Source of the DNA: Hydrogenovibrio kuenenii DSM 12350
GTDB taxonomy: Bacteria > Pseudomonadota > Gammaproteobacteria > Thiomicrospirales > Thiomicrospiraceae
NCBI RefSeq assembly: GCF_000526715.1
Contig: NZ_JAGP01000001.1
Coordinates: 434,001 to 498,000, forward strand
Length of the DNA: 64,000 bases
Reading direction: 5' to 3'
Below, one piece after another: positions 3,543 through 7,464 of this stretch (within the stretch, counting starts at the first letter, position 1; every line of letters starts with the position of its first letter). Below the pieces are notes generated by a model. That model searched no databases and was not told the origin of the DNA. It saw nothing but the letters and a program-made list of their open reading frames with translations. The position numbers and the translations under genes are program-made.

Positions 3543-4099
3543 TGATCAAACACGCCATGGTTCCTCTAGCGCAAGGCTGTGAGGAGCTTGAAGCGGTTAC
3601 CATTATCGATTTGCTAGTCAGGGCTGGCGTTAAGGTTACGACAGTTAGTTTGGATAAAGAGCTCACCATCGTTGCTAGTAGAGGGGTTAAGTTAATCGTA
3701 GATACACCTCTTTCTGAAGTGAACTCAACTGACTTTGATATGGTTGTTTTGCCAGGCGGGTTGCCTGGCGCCGATAACCTTAATGCAAGTGATGAGCTCC
3801 ATGCGTTTTTAAATGAAATGTCTGCTAAGAATGCATTAATAGGGGCAATTTGTGCTGCACCGAAAGTGCTGGTTTCTGCAGGATTGCTTGATAATAAACA
3901 AGCGACAAGCTATCCAGGGCATATTGATAAGTTACCAGGTAATAATATGACTTACCAAGAAGATGCTGTTGTCGTCGATGGCAATATCATTACTTCAAGA
4001 GGGCCTGGAACAGCAATGGATTTTGCGTTGACTTTAATTGAGTTATTGGTTGGAAAGGAAGTTAAATCTCAAGTTGAAGCAGGTCTTGTTCGCGCTTAA
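3542..4099 (+). CDS. DJ-1/PfpI family protein (YajL/ThiJ-like)
   Basis: A 185-residue flavodoxin-like protein of the DJ-1 superfamily. The nucleophile elbow is IGAICAAPKVL, with the reactive Cys preceded by Gly-Ala-Ile. The upstream acidic residue (QGCEELEAVTIIDLLVRAG) that tunes its pKa is present. Length and motifs match YajL/ThiJ and PARK7-type proteins, which act in protein deglycation/chaperone or oxidative-stress roles. The activity of this member cannot be read from the sequence. The ATG overlaps the ctpA stop by one base. Confidence 0.88.
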   Translation: MIKHAMVPLAQGCEELEAVTIIDLLVRAGVKVTTVSLDKELTIVASRGVKLIVDTPLSEVNSTDFDMVVLPGGLPGADNLNASDELHAFLNEMSAKNALIGAICAAPKVLVSAGLLDNKQATSYPGHIDKLPGNNMTYQEDAVVVDGNIITSRGPGTAMDFALTLIELLVGKEVKSQVEAGLVRA

Positions 4100-4248
4100 T
4101 GAAGCTGTTGCTTTAATAGTTTTTTAATGACTCTAGCCAGTTGTTCAGTTTGTTCCTTACTCAGTTTAATTTGAGTTTGGGATTCTTTATCTTCAAGTTG
4201 CTCTAACAACTTAATCAACTTCCGTTTTTCTGTTTCTACATCATTCAT
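4096..4248 (-). CDS. Small hypothetical protein, 50 aa, Lys/Gln/Leu-rich helix
   Basis: An uninterrupted 50-codon frame begins with ATG at 4248 and ends with TAA at 4096-4098, overlapping the end of the convergent DJ-1 gene by four bases. A GGAAT sequence lies about 8 bases before the ATG. The product begins MNDVETEKRKL and ends KKLLKQQLH. It is highly charged, has no Cys or Trp, and should form an amphipathic helix or coiled coil. No family is recognised. Support is the plausible RBS, the full use of the gap and the protein-like composition. Confidence 0.5.
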   Translation of the reverse strand: MNDVETEKRKLIKLLEQLEDKESQTQIKLSKEQTEQLARVIKKLLKQQLH

Positions 4249-4422
4249 ACTTATTCCAGTAATCAAACTTTTAATTGGTAAGAACCATAATAAAATGGCT
4301 TACTAATGAAAGAAAACTCACTTTATTGGGTCTATTACTTTGAGACGCAGTAGTTGTAGGTCAGCCCATTTATTTTTTCGGCAGTAAATAAACACGTTAA
4401 TTTAGTTTTATTGGAGAATACC
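4249..4422 (+). promoter_or_regulatory. Leader and promoter region of the RiPP operon
   Basis: A 174-bp stretch between the small minus-strand gene and the RiPP precursor. It holds an imperfect inverted repeat, GTAAG..CCAT / ATGG.CTTAC (4278-4303), which could be an operator or RNA hairpin. No convincing sigma-70 or ECF promoter pair was found by eye. A GGAG (4413-4416) precedes the ATG at 4423 by 6 bases and fixes the precursor start. Confidence 0.4.
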
Positions 4423-4782
4423 ATGTCTAAATATTCAAGAAGAAATTTTCTAAAGTTAGCCGGCGCATCTGTTGCTGTTGGTGTATCCGGCGTAGCTGTG
4501 GCAGGAGAAAATCCGTTCGAATTTAAATCTTTAGAGGGTGGTTATGAGCAAGTTGCTGCTGCACAAGGTAATTGCGGTGCAAATAAGCAAATGAATAATG
4601 ACCAATCTAAGGGTGAGACTATGCAAAAGAATAGTCAGTCGCAGATGAAAAATGGTCAAGGCAGTTGTGGGGCAGCGGTTATGAAGCAGCATAACGGCAA
4701 TTGTGGAGCAGCGATGCCACAACAAAAACAAAAAAATCAGAAAGAGTCTAGTGAAGGAAAATGTGGTTATCAAATGCAATAA
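4423..4782 (+). CDS. Putative RiPP precursor with Tat signal and four GxCG motifs (bufferin/HvfA-like)
   Basis: A 119-residue precursor. Residues 4-11 (YSRRNFLK) are a textbook twin-arginine motif, followed by a hydrophobic stretch ending AVA at 25-27. The rest is Gln/Asn/Lys-rich and carries exactly four cysteines, at 51, 82, 94 and 114, in the repeated motif [QNE]G[NSK]CG[AY]. The last copy is EGKCG, the modified motif of HvfA-type copper-binding RiPPs; the others deviate (GNCG, GSCG). The next genes encode a DUF692 (MNIO) enzyme and a DUF2063 protein, the known maturation pair. MNIO enzymes convert Cys in such motifs to oxazolone/thioamide or thiooxazole. Export of a modified, possibly metal-loaded product is inferred. 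The ATG at 4423 is chosen for its RBS. Confidence 0.8.
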   Translation: MSKYSRRNFLKLAGASVAVGVSGVAVAGENPFEFKSLEGGYEQVAAAQGNCGANKQMNNDQSKGETMQKNSQSQMKNGQGSCGAAVMKQHNGNCGAAMPQQKQKNQKESSEGKCGYQMQ

Positions 4783-4793
4783 CTCTCATTTTC

Positions 4794-4818
4794 AAAGCCG
4801 CTTATGCGGTTTTTTTTA
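4794..4818 (+). terminator. Hairpin plus T-run between precursor and maturase
   Basis: CCGC-TTAT-GCGG, extended by a G:T and three A:T pairs, is followed by eight T. It is a classic intrinsic terminator 12 bp after the precursor stop. Partial read-through would give much more precursor mRNA than maturase mRNA, as is usual in RiPP operons. Confidence 0.8.
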
Positions 4819-4839
4819 TAATGGCTTGGCAGTTTGTGT

Positions 4840-5694
4840 ATGAGTTTTGACCCGAATGCAATCCATGGAGTCGGCTTAGGTCTGAGAAGAGATTTCTTTT
4901 ATGAAGTTTTGGAAGCTCCTAGTATTGATGTCGATTTTTTTGAAGTAGCGCCTGAAAACTGGCTTAACCTAGGCGGGAAGATGGGGCGTGATTTACAGCG
5001 TCTAACTGAACGCTATCCTTTTGTTTGTCATGGCCTGTCACTTGATCTGGGAGGGATTTCTCCGTTAAATGAAGACTACCTTTATCAGCTCAAGACATTT
5101 TTTCAACAGCATGATATTCGGTATTACACGGAGCATTTGAGTTATTGTGGCGACTCTGGTCAGCTTTATGACTTGATGCCCATTCCTTTTACCGAAGAGG
5201 CTGTTCACTATGTTGCAGATCGTATTAAACGGGCTCAAGATATTTTAGAAAGAACGATTGGTATCGAAAATATTTCATTTTATGCTATGCCATGCAATGA
5301 AATGACTGAGCAAGATTTTGTAAATGCTGTTGTGAGTGAAGCCAAGTGTGGTTTATTGTTTGACGTTAACAACACCTACGTGAATAGCATTAATCACGAT
5401 TATGATGCAGTGGACTTTATGCAGAGCATGCCGACAGATGCCATTATGTATTTACATATGGCAGGTCATTTTGACGAAGCAGAAGATTTAAAAGTCGATA
5501 CTCATGGTGAAGATGTTAAACAAGAAGTTTGGGATTTATTGGATCAGACTTACAGTGTTCATGGTTTGAAGCCGACTCTTCTAGAAAGGGATTTCAATAT
5601 TCCTCCTTTACCTGACTTGATGGTGGAGGTAGAGCAGATTCGCCAAGCTCAACAACGTTATCTTGCGCAATTTGGAGCGAAGAAGTATGGATAA
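4840..5694 (+). CDS. DUF692 (MNIO) RiPP maturase, BufB/HvfB-like
   Basis: A 284-residue TIM-barrel enzyme of the multinuclear non-haem iron oxidase family. Family landmarks are in order: GVGLGLR at the start, CHGLSLDLGG, YTEHLSYC, IENISFY, LLFDVNNTYVNS, YLHMAGH, DTHGEDV and LLERDFNIPP. They include the His, Asp and Glu residues expected to bind the iron cluster. The enzyme oxidatively rearranges cysteines of the partner precursor. The start at 4840 (MSFDPNAIHG) is preferred to the in-frame TTG six bases upstream. Its 3' end overlaps the DUF2063 gene by 8 bp. Confidence 0.9.
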   Translation: MSFDPNAIHGVGLGLRRDFFYEVLEAPSIDVDFFEVAPENWLNLGGKMGRDLQRLTERYPFVCHGLSLDLGGISPLNEDYLYQLKTFFQQHDIRYYTEHLSYCGDSGQLYDLMPIPFTEEAVHYVADRIKRAQDILERTIGIENISFYAMPCNEMTEQDFVNAVVSEAKCGLLFDVNNTYVNSINHDYDAVDFMQSMPTDAIMYLHMAGHFDEAEDLKVDTHGEDVKQEVWDLLDQTYSVHGLKPTLLERDFNIPPLPDLMVEVEQIRQAQQRYLAQFGAKKYG

Positions 5695-6469
5695 GAATTC
5701 TTCTACTCCTGCATTTCAGAAAATTCAGCAATCTTTTTCTGCCCATATACGGGATCCCGATCATAATGTATACGATGTTAAAGGTATTCCTTCTGCGCTG
5801 TCGATAGAAGATCGTCGTCTAAAGCTTTATGAAAAGCTTTTCTTTAATAACATTTATGAAATCTTTACGAGTCAATTCCCAGTTTTATATTCATTATTAG
5901 GTGAAGAACGTTGGGATCAGATTTTAAGGGAATACATGGTTAAGCACCGTGCAAAAACCCCTTTGTTCCATGAATTAGGGCAAGAGTTCTTGATATTTCT
6001 GCAGCAAGAATATCAGCCCATAGAAAGTGATCCGTCGTTTATGTTTGAGTTGGCTCATTACGAGTGGGTAGAGGTTGCTTTAGCGATAGCACCAGAGCTG
6101 GGCTTTAATAATACGAATACATCAGACGCTTCAGTTGATGATTGTTTTGAGCTTTCACCTGTAGCCTGGTATTTGTCTTATCAATGGCCTGTTCATGAGA
6201 TTTCAAAAGATTCTGTTCCAGAAAGTATTGGGGAACCATCCACTTTATTGGTTTATCGCGATGAAGAGGATGAAGTTCAGTTTATGGCGCTTTCACCTTT
6301 ACTGTATCATTTGGTTGCTTATATTGATGAACATGCTGAGATGACATTTCGAGAGATAGTGATGACTTTAGCGGAAAATTATAATCAACCCTTAGAGCGT
6401 TTGTTACCTTTTTCCGAAACCATTTTGGAGATGTTGTATAGCAAAAATATCATTCGTCCCGTTGTCTAG
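5687..6469 (+). CDS. DUF2063 RiPP maturation partner, BufC/HvfC-like
   Basis: A 260-residue protein. The N-terminal DUF2063 domain (about 5-105) has the pattern RLKLYEKLFFNNIYEIFTSQFPVL, a DNA-binding-like helical fold. The C-terminal half (about 120-260) resembles a degenerate precursor-binding domain. In methanobactin, bufferin and Hvf systems this protein pairs with the MNIO enzyme and recruits the leader peptide. The ATG at 5687 has GGAG 9-12 bases upstream and overlaps the DUF692 stop, so the two are translationally coupled. No DoxX-type gene follows. Confidence 0.88.
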   Translation: MDKNSSTPAFQKIQQSFSAHIRDPDHNVYDVKGIPSALSIEDRRLKLYEKLFFNNIYEIFTSQFPVLYSLLGEERWDQILREYMVKHRAKTPLFHELGQEFLIFLQQEYQPIESDPSFMFELAHYEWVEVALAIAPELGFNNTNTSDASVDDCFELSPVAWYLSYQWPVHEISKDSVPESIGEPSTLLVYRDEEDEVQFMALSPLLYHLVAYIDEHAEMTFREIVMTLAENYNQPLERLLPFSETILEMLYSKNIIRPVV

Positions 6470-6473
6470 CGTA

Positions 6474-7409
6474 CTACCGGATCAGGTTATCAAAATTAAA
6501 GCTGATACTTAATTGACCACCTCTAAAATGACGACCTTGCAGATAACTAAAGCCATACGTTAGGTTGTTCCACCATTTATCTTCATAAGATTTAAGACGA
6601 AAATTTAAGTTAGCTTCATACCAATAATTGGTTGAAAGTGCTTCTTGAACTTTGCCATAGGCATCCGTTCGGTTAAATTGAGGGTTAATTGCAATCCCCC
6701 AAGTATTCATGGAAAACTTCCATGGTTCACCAAAGTCAATTTTATTGGACCAAAGACCTGAGCGCGAAGAAACGTCTTCCACACCACTTTTTGCGAATAC
6801 ACTTTCAGTAAATAGGTATACCGCTTTTGTTTCAAACAGCCAATTTGTGCGTCTGGGCAAGATAGGAAAGCGAAGACCCAAGGCTGGAATCACTGAAAGC
6901 GTGTTAGTTTTCCAATCAAAATGAACGTAGTCTATTGGTGTAGTAGTTGTTGGAACGGTGTAATGGTGGTGTATCCGACTATAGGCGAGTTCTAACGTAG
7001 AAAACCATCGAACATCTGGATTGAGGTTCTTTGAGTAGCCGATGCCTGCACTCAAAGAGTTTGCCTGCCAAGATGAATTGGTTGTGCCGTTAGCAACTTC
7101 AAACTGTTGGTTCATGTCAAAACGACCATAGCCTAGTAACATAGACCACTTGGAAGAGTCGCTATGAAGACCATATGTTTTCCGATAGGGTATCTTAAAA
7201 GTTGAAAAGCTTGATGATGGTGAATTGTTATCTGTTTTTTCAACCGCATAGCTTCCAGTTGACACCGACTCCTGGCTAGTCAAAAAGGTAATAATGCCGG
7301 TTGTAGCGGCTAAGTTACGTTGAATTTCATCTGAAACGATTGTATCGGCATGAGCCAGATCATTATAGGTAAGGAGCAAAAAGGCAACTAAGAGGAGAAA
7401 CTGAGGCAT
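6474..7409 (-). CDS. Outer-membrane beta-barrel protein (solitary autotransporter-barrel-like)
   Basis: A 311-residue exported protein. MPQFLLLVAFLLLTYNDLAHA is a Sec signal peptide, and the start at 7409 rather than the upstream TTG at 7433 places it at the N-terminus. The mature part is rich in alternating aromatic/polar strands (SMLLGYGRFDM, SLSAGIGYSKNL, ANLNFRLKSY) and ends GGQLSISFNFDNLIR, typical of outer-membrane barrels. Its overall pattern resembles the solitary autotransporter beta-barrel family, but no passenger is attached. Function unknown. It converges on the RiPP operon with 4 bp between stops. Confidence 0.65.
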   Translation of the reverse strand: MPQFLLLVAFLLLTYNDLAHADTIVSDEIQRNLAATTGIITFLTSQESVSTGSYAVEKTDNNSPSSSFSTFKIPYRKTYGLHSDSSKWSMLLGYGRFDMNQQFEVANGTTNSSWQANSLSAGIGYSKNLNPDVRWFSTLELAYSRIHHHYTVPTTTTPIDYVHFDWKTNTLSVIPALGLRFPILPRRTNWLFETKAVYLFTESVFAKSGVEDVSSRSGLWSNKIDFGEPWKFSMNTWGIAINPQFNRTDAYGKVQEALSTNYWYEANLNFRLKSYEDKWWNNLTYGFSYLQGRHFRGGQLSISFNFDNLIR

Positions 7410-7464
7410 TTGTGAAATTATTTCTCCAAACAAAGTGATGAGCCATGTTTGTATTATGCCTGAG

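Follow-up and report, generated by a model that had tools for sequence, protein, structure and literature searches.

A twin-arginine signal on the precursor of an HvfABC operon in Hydrogenovibrio kuenenii and its bacterial family

Captophorins have been described as carrying 5-thiooxazoles and binding copper (PMC12668002), and the product of the Microbulbifer MmrABC system likewise binds copper (PMC12538549). HvfX (DoxX) is common, although not universal, in the HvfABC gene clusters of this kind. The 2025 landscape paper on such peptides raises as an open problem that precursors bearing a general secretory (Sec) signal must be held back until they are modified (PMC12452194); for the same reason nisin was engineered through the twin-arginine translocation (Tat) pathway (PMC11048544), and Tat was proposed for lanthipeptides, with unsuccessful first attempts (PMC5686179). 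The landscape survey took precursors first by predicted Sec signal and then, separately, cysteine proteins without one (PMC12452194), a design under which Tat-type precursors may have been collected yet gone unrecognised. Here we analyse an operon in a window of 64,000 nt from the marine, sulfur-oxidising Hydrogenovibrio kuenenii DSM 12350 (contig NZ_JAGP01000001.1, positions 434,001-498,000 of the forward strand; genome of 2.45 Mb in two contigs). By curated models it is an HvfABC (oxazolin/captophorin) operon, and its precursor carries a Tat-type signal.

All three genes lie on the plus strand of the window. The hvfA-like precursor gene (4423-4782, stop included; 119 residues) has a ribosome-binding site, GGAG, read in the sequence at 4413-4416 before the ATG at 4423. 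It is followed by an intrinsic-terminator-like hairpin (4794-4813, with a T run to 4817), an hvfB-like gene (4840-5694) for a multinuclear non-heme iron-dependent oxidative (MNIO, DUF692) maturase of 284 residues and an hvfC-like gene (5687-6469) for a partner of 260 residues with DUF2063 and a recognition element (RRE) for ribosomally synthesized and post-translationally modified peptides (RiPPs). The last two genes overlap by 8 bp. An earlier reading of the locus made without database searches (the sequence-only reading) had listed this terminator, gene pair and overlap, together with a 119-residue precursor with a twin-arginine motif and four spaced cysteines, and our analysis agrees with it on each of these points, the terminator being best called a terminator-like hairpin. 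Frames are intact and the gene order is identical in three species.

The enzyme passes the HvfB family model NF003818 (414.9 bits, cut-off 360) and its partner, encoded beside it, the HvfC model NF050145 (238 bits, cut-off 142); the earlier label of a divergent locus does not suit enzymes that clear curated family cut-offs, and the proposal of an HvfABC-type locus holds. Pfam is concordant for both, with PF09836 and PF22106 on the partner. The precursor narrowly passes the HvfA family domain model NF050137 (20.4 bits, cut-off 19.5), which also matches 24 of 29 Tat-type relatives at E 0.01. Membership among bufferins was ruled out (BufB NF050167, 262.1 bits of 310; no BufA match to the precursor up to E 1), as was membership among methanobactins, MbnABC (MbnB TIGR04159, 42 of 325). 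Sequence comparison settles the folds; the best relative of known structure is 3BWW (246 bits), termed closely related to HvfB in PMC13419390, where the Haemophilus influenzae HvfB is described as inactive without N175, D242 or H244. By our own reading of the DVNN and DTHG motifs, the putative counterparts in the window enzyme are N177/N178, D220 and H222, all invariant in 16 aligned family sequences.

The signal peptide of the precursor (residues 1-27, 4423-4503) contains SRRNFLK at residues 5-11, with cleavage predicted after AVA by our own reading. To place this signal, precursors were sought at 200 loci with 190 distinct MNIO sequences (the loci of the bacterial family, 89 from a sample of the class and the best 80 of 552 in a named scan; five more HvfB-like matches of the class sample with E below 1e-75 were left out of the fetched loci), and the strict pattern RR.FL[KRM] was applied to the first 60 residues of the precursor open reading frames (ORFs). 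All 11 genomes of the genus encode an MNIO of the HvfB type and a twin-arginine precursor, the latter near the MNIO in nine and at another locus in two. In the family, which here coincides with the order (the same 62 genomes), 32 genomes had an MNIO match, HvfB-like in 31 of them; in the class sample 170 of 274 genomes had one at 1e-20, bufferin-type enzymes included. Among the family's HvfB loci 28 precursors were readable, and 27 of them had the strict pattern; adding two precursors from separate loci (G006 and G007, both RRQFLK) gives 29 of 30. Outside the family it was present in none of the 118 readable precursors, and rechecking whole ORFs gave no further case; 36 loci there were without a precursor by our filter (including L129, on a Thiomicrorhabdus contig that is cut off) and five were doubtful. 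Within this sample, a twin-arginine signal is characteristic of the entire bacterial family, where it stands instead of the usual export tag; it is no peculiarity of this one locus, and the sequence-only reading is corrected on this point.

No HvfA-type precursor was found adjacent to three family loci, L009, L010 and L013 (bufferin-type MNIO); the precursors of L009 and L010 turned up at a separate locus, beside hvfX. In G006 and G007, hvfX-hvfA stands apart from cus-hvfBC, i.e., precursor and maturation enzymes are encoded at different loci (L234, L235), and precursor loss in these two genomes was rejected as an explanation. The strict pattern recovered L003, L004 and L123 after a first, looser one (RR plus two hydrophobic residues) had missed them. 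Three candidates suggested only by the looser pattern were discarded and counted as non-Tat: in L063 and L162 the likely start comes after the RR, and the RRGAV of L116 is off consensus. The invariant F9 and L10 that follow the RR were dropped as evidence, the rows having been selected by the strict pattern itself.

An independently built model agrees with the pattern. The window precursor scores 20.7 bits against TIGR01409 (Tat signal; cut-off 16.7), as the Tat-like signal of the sequence-only reading had led one to expect, and at E 0.01 this model matches 27 of the 29 twin-arginine precursors of the family versus none of 50 controls (every second of 100 usable non-RR precursors, L032 included). 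The hydrophobic (h) region is less hydrophobic in the RR set, with a mean of 1.47 (27 rows) versus 1.85 (117 rows); the difference has p 4e-12 with two outliers of the 117 dropped and kinship ignored. TatC was found in all 18 genomes asked, including that of the window (PF00902, 223.8 bits). From these sequence features, the precursor is very probably exported via Tat. Across 398 genomes sampled from the phylum, a profile of the Tat-type leader (E 1e-6) recovered no Tat-type HvfA beyond the window genome; it matched five other genomes, all with Sec-type precursors that aligned only from profile position 14 or later, and twin arginines in other HvfA lineages were rejected on this ground.

RR motifs were also seen at 2 of 21 bufferin-type loci inspected, L013 (2383-2706, RRMFL) and L229 (1145-1408, RRKFA), the latter passing the BufA2 model (86.9, cut-off 60) and the former failing it (28 of 60). 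TIGR01409 matches neither, and we make no claim of Tat in bufferins.

The HvfB tree, built from 70 of the 190 sequences, groups the family in a single clade (SH-aLRT 100) containing 27 Tat-type rows, two without an adjacent precursor and one of Sec type (L032). The signal label requires two changes on this tree, most simply one gain and one loss, although a change count cannot separate gain from loss; a single replacement of Sec by Tat in the family is the probable history. The ratio of nonsynonymous to synonymous rates (dN/dS), computed for precursor residues 1-53, is 0.026, 0.043 and 0.052 when the three closest species are compared pairwise; two of these values are imprecise since dS exceeds 1.5. 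Between the sister species G003 and G008 the ratio is 0.032 for hvfB and 0.122 for hvfC; the same comparison of the window with its sisters is unusable because dS is saturated. By these values signal plus leader is under purifying selection.

Directly after the signal lies a 12-residue element, NPFEFKSLEGGY in the window (residues 30-41, 4510-4545), which is a probable recognition element for HvfBC. The general form [NDS][PA]F-x7-G[YF], hereafter NPF-x7-GY, occurs in 23 of 27 Tat-type precursors and in 104 of 119 others (L032 among the others), 102 of these 104 having the exact motif length, against a rate of about 0.002 in shuffled N-termini. Since both signal types share this element, the export signal appears to have been swapped while the probable HvfC-recognition element was kept. 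In Microbulbifer, MmrA has a conserved leader onto which the HvfC-like MmrC has been modelled (PMC12538549), and we infer that NPF-x7-GY guides HvfC more than the signal does. Two published results speak against giving the element that role: H. influenzae HvfA deprived of its Sec signal was modified poorly (PMC13419390), and a shortened FonA tolerated every single-alanine change made ahead of its core (PMC12668002).

The four cysteines, spaced 31, 12 and 20 residues apart, all lie within GxCG, which never happened when the mature part was shuffled 200,000 times. The cores are QGNCGA (Cys51, 4564-4581), QGSCGA (Cys82, 4657-4674), NGNCGA (Cys94, 4693-4710) and EGKCGY (Cys114, 4753-4770), the last being the sole canonical one, as the sequence-only reading had stated, and kept in all three sister species. 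The window species, G003 and G008 have four, five and seven cores respectively; in each only the last is EGKCGY, and the internal ones read QGNCGA, QGSCGA, NGNCGA, TGNCGA, HGNCGA or QGNCGS. GxCG[AS] is retained in every internal core; loss of the cysteine motifs in close homologues was looked for and did not occur. EGKCG makes up 155 of 193 cores in 27 Tat-type precursors and 609 of 794 in the others, and QGNCG is found at only 3 of the 190 loci, those of the window species and its two sisters. The internal cores of these three species are drifted from EGKCG to QGNCG-like sequences. In vitro, FonBC tolerates Ala, Arg or Thr before the cysteine and several residues other than Glu at position 1, and modified an NVCGG variant once; it rejects Pro, and a charged residue after the cysteine (PMC12668002). 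As FonBC accepts several such changes, modification of the drifted cores is plausible; we consider it likely that the internal cores are modified.

Terminator-like hairpins in the hvfA-hvfB gap recur in the relatives, at 17 of 25 Tat-type loci versus 15 of 103 others (L032 among the others), and in shuffled gaps at 0 of 250 and 1 of 1030, respectively. The count covers gaps of 11-399 bases with both genes on the same strand and ignores kinship; the criterion was set after the gap sequences had been seen, and some matches (L016) resemble palindromes and not terminators. It is this recurrence that gives the window hairpin its weight, a single site proving little alone. In the gaps of L016 and L018, loci of the Thiomicrorhabdus group, a near-perfect palindrome around GTxACCAGGCCTGGTxAC is unlike the terminator hairpins and is perhaps an operator or a mobile repeat. 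A promoter scan of 4080-6560 was uninformative (eight sites, 6.5 expected).

The maturation genes abut Cus-type metal-efflux genes in 5 of the 10 other genomes of the genus: cusB-cusA-cusC-hvfA-hvfB-hvfC run on one strand in G001, G005 and G010, and in G006 and G007 Cus-type genes continue directly into hvfB-hvfC. Cus names were assigned by similarity and by eye, except for the models tested. Both permeases tested pass the CusA/CzcA family cut-off of 701.45 (1213.8 and 1276.1), the G006 adaptor carries a CusF domain (140.7 bits, cut-off 27), and both adaptors tested fall below the cut-off of 390 of the NCBIfam CusB model (232.9 and 163.6). The window genome has its own Cus-type cluster at 2.30 Mb, with a permease 75% identical to that of G001. 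Gene neighbourhood ties the system to efflux of a heavy metal, probably copper, and family and neighbourhood together make copper the likely bound metal.

In the separate Cus cluster of the window genome, G003 and G008, the CusB-like adaptor itself starts with MKTRRQFL (window copy L247 8639-9910, or C1 at about 2.3046-2.3059 Mb; other copies at L257, L258, L264 and L265); the start is NRRQFI or NRRQLL in G002 and G004 and looks Sec-type in G001, G005, G009 and G010. TIGR01409 matched neither of the two adaptors tested. A small exported protein rich in Cys, His and Met opens Cus-type clusters (L207 15411-15839, L203 14655-15032, L247 10012-10443); the L207 copy matches no Pfam or NCBIfam model. 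Next to the operon in the window, the product of a convergent gene on the minus strand (6474-7433) is a solitary autotransporter barrel of the outer membrane (PF11557, 40.7 bits, cut-off 22.5), and a convergent gene occupies the equivalent place in G003 and G008.

The best reading of the locus, and on balance a probable one, is a copper metallophore of the thiooxazole kind, with cytoplasmic maturation followed by export through Tat. With a terminator downstream of hvfA, transcription would reach hvfBC only in part, and the precursor would be made in excess of its enzymes. HvfC would bind the N-terminal part, mainly NPF-x7-GY, and HvfB, going by its family, would oxidise the GxCG cysteines to 5-thiooxazoles while the peptide is still cytoplasmic. 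The twin-arginine signal would then route the modified peptide via the Tat translocase, a path that would allow the enzymes time to complete modification, to the periplasm, where it would bind and buffer copper alongside Cus-type efflux. Of this picture, the analysis itself establishes the families to which the enzymes belong, the Tat-type signal and, within the sample, its confinement to the bacterial family, the retention of the motif, the drift of the cores and the surrounding genes. The sequence-only reading had taken Tat export itself to suggest modification or metal loading before exit. As to modification, the export route does not discriminate, because a Sec-signal HvfA is also modified better with its signal still attached (PMC13419390); what the Tat route contributes is that export could be slow, or of a folded or metal-loaded peptide. 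We regard as doubtful a further-reaching version in which the lineage moved from Sec to Tat for full cytoplasmic oxidation, perhaps with folding round copper, the peptide being a copper carrier out of the cytoplasm and not just a periplasmic buffer, and NPF-x7-GY, not the signal peptide, the true HvfC recognition site.

Several results weigh against a Tat-exported HvfABC metallophore at this locus. The second Tat model, PF10518, stays just under its cut-off on the window precursor (20.7 of 22.7), and one member of the family, L032, carries a Sec-type signal in a genome that encodes TatC. The profile search against bufferin and HvfA families proposed in the sequence-only reading succeeded for the HvfA family and gave nothing for BufA, and the precursor fails the HvfA equivalog model NF050188 (10.3 bits, cut-off 95). 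Of the traits of HvfABC/Buf_EGKCG-oxazolin systems, the Sec signal peptide is replaced by a Tat-type one, repeated EGKCG cores are missing (one core of four, none internal), and HvfX is missing, the best match in the window genome, away from the cluster, reaching 29.5 bits against a cut-off of 80; 4 of the 11 genomes of the genus have a match above it. The window hairpin is at chance level in a scan of 4080-6560 (two sites, 1.8 expected by shuffling), no clear operator emerged when the upstream regions of three species were aligned, and the Cus-type genes of the window genome are not adjacent, lying about 1.86 Mb from the locus on the contig (0.59 Mb the other way if the contig is circular).

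Other explanations share part of this evidence. The twin arginines might be only part of a leader read by HvfC, the peptide still leaving by Sec, and RR signals can be promiscuous. HvfA of the Sec type seems to use its signal as a leader too (PMC13419390), so that HvfC could be the reason for keeping the N-terminus; however, the window signal passes a Tat model that matches 27 of 29 relatives at E 0.01, the h-region is less hydrophobic in the RR set, and NPF-x7-GY offers HvfC a handle independent of signal type, which makes exit by Sec quite unlikely. Modification might instead be confined to EGKCGY, the QGNCG-like cores being decayed, with free thiols that bind metal or lie idle. The dominance of EGKCG elsewhere and the rarity of QGNCG fit such decay, as does a single-repeat FonA test peptide that stayed unmodified (PMC12668002), but GxCG[AS] persists in every internal core of three species with different core numbers and FonBC tolerates several variants; we hold decay to be unlikely.

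The hosts are sulfur oxidisers, and the product might handle reactive sulfur or a metal other than copper. The CusA/CzcA models leave the metal unspecified, neither adaptor tested reaches the CusB cut-off, and other metals have been proposed for related precursors (PMC12452194), whereas the CusF copper-binding domain fused to the neighbouring adaptor in G006 and the copper binding of characterised relatives (PMC12668002, PMC12538549) leave this alternative a small chance. An operon degenerating towards loss would explain the unmatched hvfX and the four cysteines where many relatives have more, but it is very improbable given intact frames, the same order in three species, and low dN/dS in the hvfA N-terminus and in hvfB and hvfC of G003 and G008.

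A full-text literature search gave, among the matches listed, no work linking an MNIO enzyme, bufferin, thiooxazole or natural RiPP precursor to a twin-arginine signal, the PNAS founding papers and a 2026 bufferin-leader paper being outside its coverage. "Tat" and "twin-arginine" had no occurrences in the MNIO papers examined, including PMC12668002 and PMC12538549; DUF692 and Tat co-occur in the genome papers PMC5852495 and PMC9369656, in unrelated places. The family is known, and its Tat-signal variant is, as far as this search reaches, new, lineage-wide and testable. A lineage with a Tat signal and the same enzyme families and motif amounts to a natural experiment on modification before export; it separates export signal from recognition element and offers strain pairs for direct tests, while the QGNCG drift in three species broadens the core sequences to try with HvfBC enzymes.

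Among known systems, the bufferins (Buf1, Buf2) are alike in an MNIO with a PME-type 1 partner, an exported cysteine peptide, thiooxazole and copper buffering (PMC12452194), and differ in that the window enzyme is under the BufB cut-off and its precursor matches no BufA model. Oxazolin (HvfABC of nontypeable H. influenzae) shares HvfB- and HvfC-family enzymes, a precursor with an export signal, GxCG cores and a copper-metallophore model. Compared with it, the window locus has a Tat-type and not a Sec signal, mostly QGNCG-like cores placed singly and far apart in a Gln/Asn-rich linker, a terminator-like hairpin after hvfA, and no HvfX match in its genome. The captophorins (fontiphorin FonABC, gonophorin) and Microbulbifer MmrABC resemble it in pairing an MNIO with a DUF2063 partner on EGKCG-type cores.

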